Part shown: piece after piece, positions 2,610 to 10,705 of the stretch | Layout of the letters: every line of letters starts with the position of its first letter | How positions within the stretch are numbered: position 1 is the first letter of the stretch | NCBI GenBank assembly: GCA_019637105.1 | Contig: JAHBWF010000078.1 | Span: forward strand, 1 to 35,926 | Source of the DNA: Labilithrix sp. | GTDB taxonomy: Bacteria; Myxococcota_A; Polyangia; Polyangiales; Polyangiaceae | Length of the DNA: 35,926 bases | Direction of reading: 5' to 3' | Notes under the pieces: generated by a model | Told to the model about the DNA's origin: nothing | Databases searched by the model: none | What the model saw: only the letters and a program-made list of their open reading frames with translations | Translations under genes and position numbers: made by a program

Positions 2610-2768
2610 TCAGGCGCGCGGGACGACGACGTCGAGATCCGTCTCGGCCGGCTGCTCGCGCTTCACGAAGAGCGGGCCGTCCTTCAACGGATCGTAGTTG
2701 TCGTCCTGGTAAGAGGAGATCTCGGCGTCCATCTTGATCTCGATCGCTTCGGGCTTGGTCCAGCTCAT
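2610..2768 (-). CDS. pqqA: PqqA-like PQQ precursor peptide with long C-terminal extension
   Basis: This short gene encodes 52 residues from ATG 2768 to TGA 2610. It begins MSWTKPEAIEIKMDAEISSY. The N-terminal W-x-KP and the Glu16-I-S-S-Tyr20 spacing match PqqA peptides, in which PqqE joins the Glu and Tyr side chains to start PQQ synthesis. Classical PqqA has 22-24 residues and ends soon after the Tyr; here about 32 more follow, acidic at first (QDDNYD) and ending VVVPRA. An AAGG ribosome site lies about nine bases before the ATG. The gene sits 90 bases downstream of a sorbosone-dehydrogenase-like gene and over 3.5 kb from pqqBCDE, which run the other way. The identification rests on the motif plus the neighbouring pqqBCDE. 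A PQQ-enzyme-associated peptide that merely resembles PqqA is the alternative. Confidence 0.82.
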   Translation of the reverse strand: MSWTKPEAIEIKMDAEISSYQDDNYDPLKDGPLFVKREQPAETDLDVVVPRA

Positions 2769-2858
2769 CGTCTTACCTTGTGGTCATTCTGACGCGAATC
2801 CAGGTCGTGTCCAGCGCATTCGAGCCCGCCGCCGACCGCGTCGCCGACGGCGCCGACA

Positions 2859-4607
2859 TCACTGCGGAAGCGGCGCGCCCTCGCGGATCCAGCTCTCGAC
2901 CTCCTCGAGCTGCTCGGGGCTCAGGCCGCCCGCGGGCATCTGCGGGTACCCCTCGCCCTTGACGCGGAGCACGAGCTCGCTGTCGAGCCGGTTCGGCTGC
3001 ACGTACGGCGGGCGGCCGCCGGTGCGCGGCGCGCGCAGGCGCTCCGCGTTGCCCACGGCGTCGCACCGGTCGAGGCGGAGGCCGCCGGCGTATCCGGGCC
3101 CGACGCCGTGACAGCCGACGCACGCCGTGTCGACGACGTCCCGCTGCACGCGCGAGAACGAGTCCGTGCGACGCGCGAGCTGCTCGCAGCGCTGGCGCTC
3201 CTCCGGGCTCGCCTGCGGCTGCGTCGCGGGGAGCGGCCGCATCGGCGCGCCGTCCCCGCCCGCGGGATCGAAGAACACGCGGAGCACCGTGCCGTTCTTG
3301 TCCTCGGTCAGGTAGAGCGAGCCGTCGGCGGCCGCGAGGACGTCGACCGGCGCGCCGAGGGGCTCGCGACCGTCGGCGCTCTTCTCCCAGCCGCGGATGA
3401 CGTCGAGCGGGTCGCCTGCGCCCGGGACGCCGTTCGCGTCGACGGGGACGACGACCAGGCGGTGACCGTTGGCGCGGTAGCCGTGGTACGCGACGAGGAG
3501 GTTCCCGCGGTACGGCGCCGGGAACATCGCGCCCTCGTAGTAGGTCATCCCGAGCGGCGCCGCGTGCCCCGGCAAGAGGAGCGCCGGGTTCGTGTAGCGC
3601 GTGCAGTCGACGCGGCCGCGGTACTCCGGGTTCGGCGCGCCGTTGTCGTAGCAGTACGGCCAGCCGTAGTGCGCGCCGGGGACGATGACGTTGAGCTCCT
3701 CGTGCGGGAGATCGCCTTCGTTGTCGGTGAGCGACGCCTCGTGCTTGTGGATCGAGTCGCGCGAGTTCTCCGCCTGGATGAGCGCGTTCGACACGGGGTG
3801 GACCGCGAGCGCCATCGAGTTGCGGAGGCCCTTCGCGACGACGGTGTGGCCCGCGGCGACGTGATCGGGCCCCTCGAGGACGTATTTGCGGATGACGCCG
3901 TGGGGCTTCGGGCCGTCGGCCTCGGGGCACGGCAGCGGGTAGCCCGCCGGCGGCCGCGCGCCCGCGCCCTGCTCGCAGACGTCGGAGACGGAGCCGACGT
4001 TCGCGTAGAGCGTCCACGGGTCGCGCTTGTCGAAGACGAACTTCGCGAGCGGGTGCCGCCCGGCGCCCGGGAGATCGTTGACGACGACCTTGAAGCGGGG
4101 CTGCTTGTAGTCCGGCGACGCGCGGAACTTCCCGGCGCGCGGGACCGGATCGACGGTCTGCTCGTACGGATCGAAGCGGAAGATGCCCTTCGGCGTGCCG
4201 ATGTACGGCAGGCCGTCCGGACCGACGGCGACGCCGCTCGGCTTGTCGATCAGCTTCGCCACGCGCGTGCGCGAGAAGGACTTGTCGGCGAGGCGGCGGA
4301 GGAGCCAGACCGAGCCGCGGTCCTGGGCCCAGCCGCCCATCTCCGCGAGGACGAAGTCGCCGCTCGGGAGCTGGGCGATGCCGCGCGCGTAGGTGAAGCC
4401 GTCGGCGACGAGGCCGACGCACACGCCCGGCGGCGTCTTCAGCGTCTTCAAGCGCGGGAGTCCGTCGCACGAGCCCTCCGTCGTGTACGCCTCTTCGCCC
4501 GCCTCCTCCTCGACGACGTCCTCGTCGCCAGGCTGCCCGCAGGCAGGCGTGAGGACGGCCGCGCCGAGGAGCGTCGAGGCGAGGAGCGGGAGGAGGGCCG
4601 AGCGCAC
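2859..4607 (-). CDS. Secreted glucose/sorbosone dehydrogenase-like protein with C-terminal cytochrome c domain
   Basis: The product has 582 residues from GTG 4607. A short hydrophobic signal (LLPLLASTLLGAAV) ends at TPAC, so it is exported and possibly lipidated. The body (about 45-475) resembles the glucose/sorbosone dehydrogenase beta-propeller, with GVAVGPDG, LRNSMALAVHP, PGAHYGWPYCY and GAPVDVLAAADGSLYLTEDKNGTVLRV-type blade ends. Members of this fold such as soluble glucose dehydrogenase bind PQQ. CVGCH at 496-500 and Met557 in YPQMPAGG mark a mono-heme cytochrome c, so electrons could pass from PQQ to heme in one chain. pqqA lies immediately downstream and a P450 upstream, which supports a PQQ-linked role. 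The substrate is unknown. The start is uncertain: a strong GAGAGGAG lies about 45 bases upstream of this GTG without an in-frame ATG. Confidence 0.85.
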   Translation of the reverse strand: MRSALLPLLASTLLGAAVLTPACGQPGDEDVVEEEAGEEAYTTEGSCDGLPRLKTLKTPPGVCVGLVADGFTYARGIAQLPSGDFVLAEMGGWAQDRGSVWLLRRLADKSFSRTRVAKLIDKPSGVAVGPDGLPYIGTPKGIFRFDPYEQTVDPVPRAGKFRASPDYKQPRFKVVVNDLPGAGRHPLAKFVFDKRDPWTLYANVGSVSDVCEQGAGARPPAGYPLPCPEADGPKPHGVIRKYVLEGPDHVAAGHTVVAKGLRNSMALAVHPVSNALIQAENSRDSIHKHEASLTDNEGDLPHEELNVIVPGAHYGWPYCYDNGAPNPEYRGRVDCTRYTNPALLLPGHAAPLGMTYYEGAMFPAPYRGNLLVAYHGYRANGHRLVVVPVDANGVPGAGDPLDVIRGWEKSADGREPLGAPVDVLAAADGSLYLTEDKNGTVLRVFFDPAGGDGAPMRPLPATQPQASPEERQRCEQLARRTDSFSRVQRDVVDTACVGCHGVGPGYAGGLRLDRCDAVGNAERLRAPRTGGRPPYVQPNRLDSELVLRVKGEGYPQMPAGGLSPEQLEEVESWIREGAPLPQ

Positions 4608-6299: not shown

Positions 6300-7232
6300 A
6301 TGCGTGCGATCGTGCTCGGCTCCGCCGCCGGCGGCGGCTTCCCTCAATGGAACTGCGGCTGCTCGAACTGCGCGGCCGTGCGCGCGGGCCGCCCGGGCTT
6401 CGTCCCGCGGACGCAGGACTCGCTCGCCGTGACCGCCGGCGCCGATCCGATGACCGGCCGCTTCGTGCTCGTGAACGCGTCGCCCGACGTCCTCGCGCAG
6501 ATCCAGAAGACCCCCGCGCTCTGGCCGCGCGCGCCGCGCCACTCGCCGATCGCGGCCATCGTCCTCACGAACGGCGACATGGATCACGTGCTCGGCCTCT
6601 TCTCGCTGCGCGAGTCGTACCCGCTCGCGCTCTACGCCACGTCGTCGGTGCGGCGCGGGCTCGAGGAGAGCGCGTTCATCCGCACGCTCCGCCGCTTCGA
6701 GGGGCAGCTCGTCGTCCGCGAGCTCGTCCTCGGCGCGCGCGCGGAGCTCGCCGACGCCGCCGGCGAGCCGCTCGGCCTCGCGGTCACGCCGTCGGCGATG
6801 TCGGGGAAGCTCCCCGTCCACTTCGTCGGTCACGCGAAGGGCGCGGCCGAGGACAACGTCGCGCTCTCGTTCACCGACGGGCGCGGCTCGCTGATGTACG
6901 CCGCGGCGGGCGCCAGCGCGGAGGTCGACCTCGGCGGACACGACGTCGTCCTGTTCGACGGCACGTTCTACCGCGAGGACGAGCTCGTGCGCCTCGGGCT
7001 GTCGAAGTCGTACGCGCGCGACATGGCGCACGTCCCCATCGGCGGAGACGCCGGGAGCCTCGCGCGGCTCGGGGGCCTCGCGGCGCGCCGCATCTACACG
7101 CACGTCAACAACACGAACCCGATCCTCGCCCCCGACTCGGAGGAGCGTCGCGCCGTCGAGGCGGCGGGCTGGGAGATCGCGCACGACGGCATGGAGATCG
7201 TGCTCGAAGGCGCCGCCGGAGGGACGCGATGA
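6300..7232 (+). CDS. pqqB: PQQ biosynthesis protein PqqB (metallo-beta-lactamase fold)
   Basis: The 310-residue product starts MRAIVLGSAAGGGFPQWNCGC, almost the family's standard opening; an in-frame ATG three codons upstream (6291) is an alternative start. The NCGCSNC cysteine cluster and MDHVLGLFSLRE (the HxxxxL-type part of the beta-lactamase-like fold) are present, as is DNVALSF near the middle. PqqB is a metal-dependent oxygenase that hydroxylates the tyrosine ring of the crosslinked PqqA dipeptide. Its length matches the family's usual 300-310. Its TGA overlaps the pqqC ATG as ATGA, so the two are translationally coupled. It is the first gene of the rightward pqqBCDE operon. Confidence 0.97.
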   Translation: MRAIVLGSAAGGGFPQWNCGCSNCAAVRAGRPGFVPRTQDSLAVTAGADPMTGRFVLVNASPDVLAQIQKTPALWPRAPRHSPIAAIVLTNGDMDHVLGLFSLRESYPLALYATSSVRRGLEESAFIRTLRRFEGQLVVRELVLGARAELADAAGEPLGLAVTPSAMSGKLPVHFVGHAKGAAEDNVALSFTDGRGSLMYAAAGASAEVDLGGHDVVLFDGTFYREDELVRLGLSKSYARDMAHVPIGGDAGSLARLGGLAARRIYTHVNNTNPILAPDSEERRAVEAAGWEIAHDGMEIVLEGAAGGTR

Positions 7233-7933
7233 GCCGCGACGACGCGCCGCTCGATCGCGAGGCGTTCGTCGCCCGCCTCCGCGCCGAGGGGGAGAGCCGC
7301 TACCACGACCGTCACGACTTCCACGTCCGGATGCACGCCGGCGCGCTCTCGCGACGGCAGATCCAGGCGTGGGTGGAGAACCGCTTCTACTACCAGACGC
7401 GGATCCCGATCAAAGACGCGATCATCCTGTCGAAATCGGAGGACCCGGCGTTCCGGCGCGTCTGGATGCACCGCATCTCCGACCACGACGGGAAAGAAGA
7501 AGGTCAGGGCGGCATCGCGCAGTGGCTCCGCCTCGCGAAGGGCGTCGGCCTCGACGTCGGCGAGGTGAGGAGCCTCACGCACGTCCTCCCGGGCGTGCGC
7601 TTCGCCTGCGACGCCTACGTCCAGCTCGTGCGCGAGCGCCCGCTCGTCGAGGCGGTCGCCTCGTCGCTCACCGAGTTCTTCTCGCCCGACATCATGGCGA
7701 GGCGCGTCGCCGCGTGGGAGCAGCACTACCCGTGGGTCGACGGCGACACGCTGGCTTATTTCCGCGGCCGCGTGACGCGCGCGCGCGAGGACTCGCGCGA
7801 GGCGATCGACTACGTGCTCGCGCACGCGACCACGCGCGCGGAGCAGGAGCGCTGCGTCGACGCCTTGATCCGCAAGACCGAGATCCTCTGGGCGCTCCTC
7901 GACGCGGTCGACCGCGCGTTCCCGGGCACCTGA
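7229..7933 (+). CDS. pqqC: Pyrroloquinoline-quinone synthase PqqC
   Basis: The 234-residue product matches the usual PqqC length (about 230-250). It contains YHDRHDFHVRMHAGALS, WVENRFYYQTRIPIKDAIILS and the EFFSPDIMARR stretch that are characteristic of PqqC. The enzyme carries out the last step of the pathway, cofactor-free ring closure and eight-electron oxidation of the AHQQ intermediate to PQQ in the cytoplasm. The start codon overlaps the end of pqqB by four bases; pqqD follows after 29 bases. All features look intact. Confidence 0.97.
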   Translation: MSRDDAPLDREAFVARLRAEGESRYHDRHDFHVRMHAGALSRRQIQAWVENRFYYQTRIPIKDAIILSKSEDPAFRRVWMHRISDHDGKEEGQGGIAQWLRLAKGVGLDVGEVRSLTHVLPGVRFACDAYVQLVRERPLVEAVASSLTEFFSPDIMARRVAAWEQHYPWVDGDTLAYFRGRVTRAREDSREAIDYVLAHATTRAEQERCVDALIRKTEILWALLDAVDRAFPGT

Positions 7934-7962: not shown

Positions 7963-8247
7963 GTGGCGCGGGAGCTCTCCTTCATCCCCAAGCTGGCCAA
8001 GAAGGCGCGCCTGCGCTTCGATCGCCACTCGGGCAGCCACATGATCGTCTACCCCGAGCGCGGCCTCGCGTTGAACGGGAGCGCCGCGGAGATCGCCCGG
8101 CGCTGCGACGGGACGCGCACGCTCGGCGCGATCGTCGACGAGCTCGCGCGCGAGGCCGGCGCCGGCGCGGACGAACGCGCGATCGTCGAGACGGACGTCG
8201 TCGCGTTCGTCGAGCTGCTCGCGCAGAGGGGCCTGCTCGAGCCATGA
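7963..8247 (+). CDS. pqqD: PQQ biosynthesis chaperone PqqD
   Basis: The 94-residue product starts at GTG 7963, chosen because GAGGAG lies six bases upstream. The protein has the PqqD pattern: an N-terminal strand region (PKLAKKARLRFDRHSGSHM), YPERGLALNGSAAEIARRCDG and a C-terminal winged-helix-like part ending LLAQRGLLEP. PqqD is a RiPP recognition element that binds the PqqA precursor and presents it to PqqE. Its last codon overlaps the pqqE ATG as ATGA. Given the unusual length of the local PqqA, this protein and PqqE are the natural partners to test for tolerance of the tail. Confidence 0.96.
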   Translation: MARELSFIPKLAKKARLRFDRHSGSHMIVYPERGLALNGSAAEIARRCDGTRTLGAIVDELAREAGAGADERAIVETDVVAFVELLAQRGLLEP

Positions 8248-9314
8248 GCGCGCCGCGGCCCTACACGCTCATCGCCGAGCTCACCTACCGCTGCCCGCTC
8301 CGGTGCCCGTACTGCTCGAACCCGACCGATCTGGCCGCGCACGACGGCGAGCTCGGCACCGACGAGTGGACGTGCGTGCTCGGCGAGGCCGAGGCGCTCG
8401 GCGTCGTGCAGGTGCACTTCACCGGCGGCGAGCCGCTCGCGCGCAAGGACCTCGAGGCGCTCGTGACGCGCGCGCGCGAGCTCGAGCTCTACTCGAACCT
8501 CGTCACCAGCGGCGTCCCGCTGACGAAGCAGCGCCTCGCGGGGCTCGTCGAGCGCGGGCTCGACCACGTGCAGGTGAGCGTCCAGTCGGCGCGCCCCGAT
8601 CGCGCCGACGCGATCGCCGGCTACGCCGCGCACCCGCAGAAGATCCAGGTGATGCGCTGGGTCACCGAGCTCGGGCTCCCGCTCACGATGAACGTCGTCC
8701 TCCACCGCGCGAACCTCGACGAGATCGACGAGCTCGTCGCGCTGGCCGAGGACGTCGGCGCGAGCCGGCTCGAGCTGGCCAACACGCAATACGTCGCGTG
8801 GGCGCTGTCGAACCGCGACGCGCTCCTGCCGACGCGCGCCCAGCTCGAGGCGGCCGGCGAGCGCGCCGCGAAGCACAAGGCGCGCCTCCAGGGGAGGATG
8901 GACGTGCTCTTCGTGAAGCCCGACTACTTCGGGACGACGCCGAAGGCGTGCATGGACGGCTGGGCGCGCCGCTTCATCCACATGGTCCCGGACGGGCGCG
9001 TCCTGCCCTGCCACGCCGCCACGAGCATCACGCCGCTCCGCTTCGACAGCGTGAAGGATCGCGCGCTCGCCGACATCTGGACGTCGTCCGAGGCGCTCCT
9101 CGCCTACCGCGGCGAGGCGTGGATGCCCGAGCCGTGCAAGAGCTGCGAGCGCCGGACGATCGACTTCGGCGGCTGCCGCTGCCAGGCCTTCGCGCTCACG
9201 GGCGACGCCTCCGCGACCGATCCCGCCTGCCAGCTCGCCCCGCAGCACGCGCTGGTCGAGGCCGCGCGTTCGCGCGAGCCCGGCGAGCGCCGCTATCTTT
9301 ACCGCGGCCGCTGA
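8244..9314 (+). CDS. pqqE: PqqA peptide cyclase PqqE (radical SAM/SPASM)
   Basis: The 356-residue product has the radical SAM triad C17-x3-C21-x2-C24 (YRCPLRCPYC), FTGGEPLARKDL for SAM binding, and a C-terminal SPASM region with CMDGWARRF, VLPCHAA, PCKSCERR and FGGCRCQAF. These are the auxiliary iron-sulfur ligands of PqqE, which forms the carbon-carbon bond between Glu and Tyr of PqqA. Length and motif order match the family, and nothing is missing. The gene ends the pqq block; an MFS gene starts 50 bases downstream. Confidence 0.97.
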   Translation: MSAPRPYTLIAELTYRCPLRCPYCSNPTDLAAHDGELGTDEWTCVLGEAEALGVVQVHFTGGEPLARKDLEALVTRARELELYSNLVTSGVPLTKQRLAGLVERGLDHVQVSVQSARPDRADAIAGYAAHPQKIQVMRWVTELGLPLTMNVVLHRANLDEIDELVALAEDVGASRLELANTQYVAWALSNRDALLPTRAQLEAAGERAAKHKARLQGRMDVLFVKPDYFGTTPKACMDGWARRFIHMVPDGRVLPCHAATSITPLRFDSVKDRALADIWTSSEALLAYRGEAWMPEPCKSCERRTIDFGGCRCQAFALTGDASATDPACQLAPQHALVEAARSREPGERRYLYRGR

Positions 9315-9364
9315 CGCGCCGCCCCTACCGCGGGCCGCCGACGCCCGCCGCCTCCGAAACGAAG

Positions 9365-10705
9365 ATGCAGAAGACACCGCTCGCCATCGCGTCCGCCGGC
9401 GCCTTCGTCGCCGCGCTCAGCACGAGCCTCGTCGCGGTCTCGGCGCCCGTCATCGCGCGGGACCTCGCGGCGTCGTCCGGCGACGTGAGCTGGGTGCTCT
9501 CCGCCTACCTCCTCGCGGTGAGCTCGCTCCTCGCGCTCGCCGGCAAGCTTGCGGACGTCCTCGGGCAGAGGCGCGTGTACCTCACGGGGTTCGTCTTCTT
9601 CGTCGCCGGCGCGGCGATGTGCGCGGCGGCGAAGGACCTCTTCGCCCTCGTCGGCGCGCGCGTCCTTCAGGGCGCCGGCGCGGCGATGCTCATGGCCGTC
9701 GGTCCCGCGATCGTCACGCGCGCCGTCCCGCCGTCCCGGCGCGCGCGCGCCCTCGGCGTCCAGCTCGCGGCGACGTACGTCGGCTTGACGCTCGGCCCGG
9801 GCGCCGGCGGCCTCCTCGCGGCGAGGATCGGCTGGCACGCGGTCTTCGTGACGATCGCGGGCGCGGGCGTCATGGGGCTCGCGGCGGCCGCTCTCCTCCT
9901 GCCGGCCGACGACCACGACGGGCGCGGCGCCGCCGGGGCGAGCGCGCTCGATCTGCCCGGCGCGCTCTTGTTCGCGCTCGGCCTCTCGACGCTCCTCGTC
10001 GCCATGAAGCGGACGCACGACGAGGGCTGGGCGAGCCGATCCGTCCTCCTCCTCGGCGCGCTCTCGCTCGTGACGCTCGCGGTGTTCGTGCGCCACGCCG
10101 CGCTCCACCCCGCGCCGCTCCTGCCGCTCGGGCTCTTCCGCAGGCCGGCGTTCGCGTTCGGCGTCCTCGGCGCGCTCGTGCTCTACACCGTCACGTTCAT
10201 GCTCGCGTACCTCCTGCCGTTCCACCTCCAGCGCGACGCCGGGCTCTCGCCCGCCCACGCCGGCGCGCTCATGACGGCGCAGCCGGCGACGATGGCGGTC
10301 GTCGCGCCGTTGAGCGGCGTCGTCGCCGATCGCTGGGGACCGCGCCTCCCGAGCTCGGCCGGGATGCTCGCGATCGCCGGGGGCATGACGTCGGTCGCCG
10401 CGACCGCCGCCGCGCCGGGCGCGCGCCTCGTCCTGTCGCTCGCGCTCGTCGGCCTCGGCGCCGGGCTCTACGTCGCGCCCAACAGCGCGCTCGTCATGGG
10501 GGCCGCCCCGCGCGATCGCCAGGCGACGGCCGCCGCGATGGCCGCGACGGCGCGCAACGTCGGCATGACGCTCGGGATCGCCGTCGCCGCCTCGCTCGAT
10601 CGCGCGGTCGGCTTTCGCGGCGCGCTGCTCGTCGCCGCCGGGCTCGCCGCGCTCGGCGCGCTCCTCGGCGTCGTGCGCCCCGTAGCGGCGTCGGGATCGA
10701 CTTGA
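9365..10705 (+). CDS. MFS transporter (DHA2/EmrB-QacA type)
   Basis: The 446-residue product consists almost wholly of hydrophobic segments, consistent with 12 or more membrane spans. It has the MFS motif A region GKLADVLGQRRVYLTG, the drug/proton antiporter motif C-like GLTLGPGAGGLLAARIGW and the early VSAPVIARDLAASSGDVSWVLSAYLL seen in EmrB/QacA-like exporters. The substrate is unknown. It starts 50 bases after pqqE and ends 14 bases before the rhodanese gene, so it is likely co-transcribed with pqqBCDE; a role in moving PQQ or a product of the PQQ enzyme is only a guess from position. Confidence 0.9.
   Translation: MQKTPLAIASAGAFVAALSTSLVAVSAPVIARDLAASSGDVSWVLSAYLLAVSSLLALAGKLADVLGQRRVYLTGFVFFVAGAAMCAAAKDLFALVGARVLQGAGAAMLMAVGPAIVTRAVPPSRRARALGVQLAATYVGLTLGPGAGGLLAARIGWHAVFVTIAGAGVMGLAAAALLLPADDHDGRGAAGASALDLPGALLFALGLSTLLVAMKRTHDEGWASRSVLLLGALSLVTLAVFVRHAALHPAPLLPLGLFRRPAFAFGVLGALVLYTVTFMLAYLLPFHLQRDAGLSPAHAGALMTAQPATMAVVAPLSGVVADRWGPRLPSSAGMLAIAGGMTSVAATAAAPGARLVLSLALVGLGAGLYVAPNSALVMGAAPRDRQATAAAMAATARNVGMTLGIAVAASLDRAVGFRGALLVAAGLAALGALLGVVRPVAASGST

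Follow-up and report, generated by a model that had tools for sequence, protein, structure and literature searches.

PQQ is a bacterial redox cofactor. The stretch of Labilithrix sp. DNA analysed here (the window, 35,926 nucleotides) carries a reading frame of 52 codons whose product has the glutamate and tyrosine of a PqqA peptide and then continues for 32 residues. The locus therefore raises two questions, namely whether such a peptide can be the PqqA of its genome, and what the additional residues might be for. Very probably the small gene does encode a PQQ precursor, one with a long tail that the textbook peptide lacks. Our reading, which we put at about three chances in four, is that it is this genome's PqqA and belongs to a long-follower subfamily, in which the follower would be a retained module that docks on or shields the peptide in the PqqD-PqqE complex.

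The gene lies on the minus strand, a detail that the original prediction did not give, with an ATG at 2768 preceded by an AAGG stretch and a stop codon at 2612-2610 (Table 1). Its translation, MSWTKPEAIEIKMDAEISSYQDDNYDPLKDGPLFVKREQPAETDLDVVVPRA, is 52 residues long and agrees in full with the peptide as first described, with Glu16, Tyr20, the W-x-KP leader (W3-T-K5-P6) and a 32-residue tail. Both the Glu-x3-Tyr pair that becomes PQQ and the aromatic-x-x-Pro leader ahead of it are present, the aromatic residue being W, Y or F, three before the proline, in 34 aligned homologues. The peptide falls outside the 22-29 residues by which short PqqA peptides are recognised, and no fold is predicted for it (pLDDT 72, pTM 0.19) apart from a helix at 27-30.

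Table 1. Features of the pqq locus in the window, with strand and the evidence for each.
Feature	Position	Strand	Basis
pqqA, 52 codons + stop	2610..2768	-	translation and homologues
Glu16 codon (future PQQ glutamate)	2721..2723	-	invariant in 34 rows
Tyr20 codon (future PQQ tyrosine)	2709..2711	-	invariant in 34 rows
Proximal follower, residues 22-35 (DDNYDPLKDGPLFV)	2664..2705	-	dN/dS and pN/pS comparisons
Distal follower, residues 36-52, indel-prone, C-terminal VPRA	2613..2663	-	alignment and selection data
Promoter-like TGGACA-N16-CAGAAT upstream of pqqA	2786..2813	-	consensus match only
Putative lipoprotein: PQQ-dehydrogenase-like beta-propeller (GSDH/AA12-like) + cytochrome c-like C-terminus	2859..4607	-	PF07995, fold match
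Cytochrome P450	4832..6175	-	PF00067 4.5e-72
pqqB	6300..7232	+	TIGR02108 321 bits
pqqC	7229..7933	+	TIGR02111 310 bits
pqqD	7963..8247	+	TIGR03859 69 bits (cut-off 46)
pqqE	8244..9314	+	TIGR02109 504 bits
MFS transporter frame downstream of pqqE (start not fixed)	9350..10705	+	PF07690 5e-56

In a protein search of this genome and its relatives, 97 genomes in all, homologues of the peptide were found at E<=1.1e-13 in 10 of the 13 genomes of the genus, its own included. Peptide and pqq cluster occur together in these 10 genomes, and neither was found in the other three (G005, 72% complete; G009; G011). PqqE was scored in nine of the 13; the tenth, G001, has PqqB, C and D, with pqqE truncated at a contig end. 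Across the family, PqqE is detected at E<=1e-60 in 34 of 109 genomes, and 30 of these 34 have a PqqA-like peptide (W/Y/F-x-x-P plus Glu-x3-Tyr) in the stretch examined. Among the remaining four, the cluster is interrupted by a contig end in G046 and G142, PqqC and PqqE alone are detected in G138, and G125 has a full cluster in which no PqqA-like peptide was found, also by a looser scan. With homologues in 10 of 13 genus genomes and a peptide in 30 of 34 PqqE-positive genomes, pqqA is not a chance open reading frame. The best named matches are to Labilithrix and other Myxococcales metagenome-assembled genomes (MAGs), followed by Sorangium cellulosum at 50-68% over part of the peptide.

An alignment of 34 rows, made up of the 30 peptides of PqqE-positive genomes and one each from G001, G068, G071 and G086, has Pro6, Glu16 and Tyr20 invariant in every row; the pair to be crosslinked is conserved among the homologues. 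No second, classical pqqA was found in the genome itself (91.5% complete, 334 contigs), where the best scores reach 14.6 bits for PF08042 (cut-off 21.1) and 14.3 for TIGR02107 (cut-off 20), and where a profile built for this family (A1) matches the pqqA frame and nothing else at E<=10. On both points on which the original prediction could have failed, it was borne out. By every identity test applied here except the library models, all of them comparisons of sequence and context, the 52-residue peptide reads as PqqA.

The library models recognise this form poorly, in line with the earlier warning that the gene is easily overlooked. Neither Pfam nor NCBIfam has a family that matches the peptide (P0002) at E<=1 or E<=10, TIGR02107 is above its cut-off in none of the 13 genus genomes, and even at E<=10 only nine (TIGR02107) and 11 (PF08042) of the 34 aligned peptides are matched. 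A search against PqqA profiles, which had been suggested as a check, gave a divided answer: TIGR02107 and PF08042 do not match the 52-mer, whereas its homologues at L064 and L101 pass in the same register. Single scoring with TIGR02107 covered seven of the 34 aligned peptides and one Elioraea peptide. The model aligns to the homologues in the same register and two of the seven pass the cut-off of 20 (L064 25.3 and L101 23.9 bits), with L099 (18.9), L077 (18.6), L120 (16.5) and L065 (14.2) below it and no match to L094 or L080; the cut-offs of TIGR02107 and PF08042 are thresholds of library recognition, not functional features. Two classical PqqA peptides score 39.9 and 44.8.

Length is no better a guide. 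Classical PqqA had been given as 22-24 residues, which proves too narrow: the lengths in our survey run from 23 to 56 with one Myxococcales peptide of 75, and those printed in PMC2294125 include 23, 29, 24 and, for P. fluorescens, '24 or 39' residues. That the 52-mer is longer than the classical form stands. Within the 34-peptide set the total length is 26-56 and the tail 7-36 residues, with a tail of at least 17 residues in 28. Pseudomonadota loci, anchored on PqqB and not on PqqA (48 loci from 47 of 299 genomes), have a PqqA-like peptide in 46 of 48 cases, with tails of 4-13. The eight Nitrospirota loci, from 198 genomes, all carry tails of 24-33 residues in peptides of 44-53; one of the eight, G389, served as the seed and had been found with profile A1. 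PqqA length is hence not diagnostic, given these eight loci and the '24 or 39' printed for P. fluorescens. Among Myxococcota, 73 of 377 genomes are PqqB-positive, and 14 of the 30 best-scoring loci read have a PqqA-like peptide, with tails of 4-33; a looser scan adds two N-extended peptides, L266 and L268. In these two and in L080:9776-9904 and L081:9758-9886, an N-terminal extension of ~18-30 residues replaces the long tail, and it is strongly acidic in L080 and L081. A 54-residue form (L126) comes from a MAG named Fibrobacteria, on one contig in one bin. Its PqqB falls among Myxococcota rows, and the contig may have been wrongly binned or the cluster transferred. The long form thus occurs in related PQQ clusters of at least two phyla.

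The distribution follows the phylogeny of PqqB. A tree of 104 rows, built like the PqqC/D/E comparisons from tblastn segments with stops written as X, was midpoint-rooted for drawing only and divides into two halves at 98/95 support. Of the 52 rows in each half, 43 in one and a single row in the other have tails of at least 17 residues, and the long-tail label changes four times on the tree compared with 33.7 when shuffled (0 of 500 shuffles as low). Some rows were found with an AEI-type profile, which selects the type of core and not the tail, and second loci of the same genome were omitted from tree and tail counts where noticed, G523 keeping two. The long-follower subfamily therefore goes with one of the two deep sides of the PqqB tree. 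Nine rows on that side are short-tailed, and the long tail must be dispensable there. No paper on a long-follower class of PqqA was found in the open-access literature.

The long tails share a layout. Among 45 of them, a count that takes close relatives of the window's genus separately, Gln directly follows Tyr in 41, Asp or Glu stands at +2 or +3 in 44, the net charge of the first 12 residues is negative in 44, and every one of the 45 has a proline between +4 and +17. The motif P-x0-2-[FIVLY][VAIL], picked once the Polyangia tails had been inspected, is present in 32 of 45 compared with 6.0 in shuffled tails, and in 17 of 26 compared with 3.3 once similar tails are removed (0 of 2000 shuffles as high); in Nitrospirota alone it is unsupported (3 of 8 compared with 1.2, 189 of 2000 shuffles as high). 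The acidic start is found in Nitrospirota too, and inspection by eye shows it in those nine rows of the long side whose tails are short. In the Labilithrix peptide an acidic patch right after Tyr-Gln is followed by the Pro-hydrophobic motif (GPLFV) and then by a variable end. Pooled over the 10 genus genomes, in pairs that are not independent, dN/dS is 0.20 for residues 22-35 and 0.19 for the core. Among the four closest genomes, where changes are few, pN/pS rises from 0.05 in the core to 0.25 in residues 22-35 and 0.56 in the distal part. From the pooled 0.20 and the 0.25 it follows that the proximal tail is under purifying selection; its constraint is about that of the core in the pooled data and weaker than that of the core among the four closest genomes.

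These same data bear on the most serious alternative, in which the tail has no role at all, the stop codon having drifted downstream and the extension being tolerated as the protease removes it anyway. Tails that range from 7 to 54 residues among relatives would suit a drifting stop codon, as would the looseness of the proximal and distal parts relative to the core in the four closest genomes, the nine rows that lack a long tail on the same side of the tree and a predicted model that has no fold. A drifting end would not, however, be expected to keep its proximal segment under purifying selection, to begin with acidic residues in 44 of 45 cases or to hold the long state stably across a large part of the PqqB tree. 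We consider an entirely idle tail unlikely, though it is the alternative that we take most seriously.

The chemistry in Labilithrix, the partner of the tail and the protease are inferred here from the characterised pathway. PqqD would present residues 1-15 of PqqA to PqqE, which would crosslink Glu16 to Tyr20, and a protease would then excise the crosslinked pair by cutting on either side of each residue. A long follower had been thought to need an extra cut. Tail length adds none if the scheme proposed in PMC2294125 applies, since the four bonds around Glu and Tyr that it has cut by a protease already include, for any PqqA, the one after Tyr; a single cut after Tyr20 would remove the tail whatever its length. 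Before that cut, the follower may dock on the PqqD-PqqE complex or shield the peptide within it. Docking of an acidic follower is the most economical idea, since PqqE contacts the C-terminal region. Charge complementarity with PqqD or PqqE was also considered and dropped as support. At K14 and R21 of PqqD, the fraction of rows with Lys or Arg is 0.90 and 0.93 on the long side (29 rows) and 0.06 and 0.00 on the short side (18 rows, six of its 24 loci having yielded no PqqD); the mean charge of PqqC also rises on the long side, and so the two positions do not single out PqqD.

The follower might instead give a protease a handle by which to take in the peptide; that enzyme would be encoded elsewhere and would take the place of the operon-borne PqqF of gammaproteobacteria. 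The chamber of Serratia PqqF is small and accommodates a 25-residue PqqA (PMC12731061), which would fit a need for some other protease. Among the neighbour clusters of 39 pqq loci, of which the 25 most widespread were covered, most of them without an assigned identity, no recurring protease was noticed, and the genome itself holds unlinked M16 candidates, with nine M16 C-domain matches on five contigs and none on the contig of the window. Alphaproteobacterial PqqA, however, is short-tailed and is likewise processed by unlinked proteases, and a handle of this kind seems rather improbable.

The neighbourhood of the gene suggests a third role. The four genes pqqB, C, D and E all score above their NCBIfam equivalog cut-offs and form an intact cluster, an operon divergent from pqqA and 3.5 kb distant. 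Between pqqA and pqqB lie the P450, whose start is separated from that of the divergent pqqB by 124 bp, and a dehydrogenase-like protein whose end resembles cytochrome c. The latter is above the cut-off of PF07995 and below those of the cytochrome c families. The best fold matches of its predicted model (pLDDT 69.5) are PQQ pyranose dehydrogenase 6jt5 and AA12 enzymes, with 3a9g and 3das also at the top and other propellers (lactonases, DFPases) ranking lower. The model thus has the beta-propeller fold expected of a PQQ-dependent enzyme, and the protein is likely to be a PQQ user. Fungal pyranose dehydrogenase likewise joins an AA12-like PQQ propeller to a cytochrome c-like part. On the other side of the locus, the MFS frame after pqqE is a possible exporter. 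Directly after pqqA, a minus-strand frame at 193-2541 encodes a Ser/Thr kinase with a C-terminal formylglycine-generating-enzyme-like domain, and a family of frames of ~452 residues recurs in nine of 39 pqq loci, for instance just after pqqE in L083.

In 8 of the 10 peptide-bearing genomes of the genus, pqqA lies 41-114 bp downstream of the dehydrogenase gene on the same strand, and the distance in G036 is likewise short at 59 bp, an arrangement that would suit a tail binding the adjacent PQQ dehydrogenase and so coupling cofactor and apoenzyme, one of the partners first proposed. In G007, however, the two genes are 6 kb apart and the promoter-like site is retained, and long tails are also found where no dehydrogenase homologue was detected in the stretch read near pqqA (L066 of G012 and the Sorangium loci L082 and L090). 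This role is disfavoured and we regard it as very improbable. The window shares identical hexamers of TGGACA-N16-CAGAAT, a consensus match only, with G003, G004 and G007, and G008 and G002 have weaker versions; on this ground pqqA may have a promoter of its own. Co-transcription with the dehydrogenase as a rule was another candidate, weakened by that site and by the arrangement in G007. That the peptide is the precursor of a different RiPP merely resembling PqqA is scarcely credible, for although the standard PqqA models do not match P0002, homologues adjoin pqqB in many genera, some of them pass the PqqA model, and the genome, with its intact pqqBCDE, yielded no other PqqA.

In other families of the Myxococcota, divergent PqqA-like peptides of another type are found away from the cluster. 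These CE-type peptides (L140-L163; profile A1) have an N-terminal extension and [W/Y/F]xxP, then L.CE(I/L)(T/S)(A/S)Y(A/V)PD and mostly ..PLF. With profile A3 they are detected at E<=1e-3 in 42 of 377 genomes of the phylum. Those of G163 and G258 lie inside pqq clusters; 36 of the other 40 genomes have PqqB, and four have a CE-type peptide with PqqB not detected (G228, G352, G904, G917), while PqqB alone is found in 37 genomes and neither in 300. Peptide and pqqB are on different contigs in 35 of the 36, although with draft contigs this does not prove distance, and far apart on the same contig in G940. In 15 pqqB regions of CE-type genomes (L273-L287), no PqqA-like peptide was found beside pqqB by the motif used; pqqB and pqqC are present in all 15 and pqqE in 14. 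TIGR02107 gives a weak match to five of 14 CE-type peptides (best 0.0026) and PF08042 to one of 14 (0.17). The simplest reading is that the CE-type peptide would be an unlinked PqqA. In L288:8593-8745 a CE-type PqqA-like peptide (..ACGCEINCYATSS..) lies between pqqC and pqqD inside a pqq cluster and is possibly a link between linked and unlinked forms. At L178 an unlinked CE-type peptide is flanked on one side by a sulfotransferase-like gene and on the other by a DUF502 gene (8307-9317, 9641-10366), frames related to which recur in five and six of the other 11 loci. Two PqqB homologues, of ~386-404 and ~172-198 bits, are present in each of seven family f29 genomes (L245, L246, L248, L249, L251-L253, L290, L292).

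Compared with classical PqqA (TIGR02107/PF08042; 23 residues in Klebsiella pneumoniae, 29 in Methylorubrum extorquens), the Labilithrix peptide shares the W-x-x-P leader, the Glu-x3-Tyr spacing and the partner enzymes PqqB, C, D and E. It differs in its core (AEI-x2-Y-Q, where classical PqqA has LEVTLY or MEVTSY), in the number of residues after Tyr (32 as against 4-9), in being unmatched by the models and in having a dehydrogenase and a P450 between pqqA and pqqB. Long-tailed PqqA of Nitrospirota and Sorangium has the same core, acidic follower and side of the PqqB tree, but in the loci read its gene is directly beside pqqB, and its distal tail is unlike that of Labilithrix in sequence. Bottromycin-type RiPPs (PMC10885120) likewise extend beyond their modified residues on the C-terminal side, by a segment that has to be removed; PqqA, unlike them, keeps an N-terminal leader bound by PqqD, and homology is not claimed.

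Taken further, and more tentatively, the pattern may reflect two anciently separated PqqA architectures, a short proteobacterial one and a leader-core-follower one in Myxococcota, Nitrospirota and perhaps Fibrobacterota, with PqqE or PqqD reading the acidic, Pro-hydrophobic follower as a third recognition element, and with pqqA having also left the operon in other Myxococcota; we hold this picture at somewhat less than even confidence. Tails spanning 4 to 54 residues form a natural series and offer a direct test of what PqqE-PqqD and the protease need beyond Glu-x3-Tyr. PQQ capability is commonly inferred from gene models, and the two tested miss pqqA here and in most of the aligned relatives; a PqqA profile made from the long form would aid annotation in at least two phyla.
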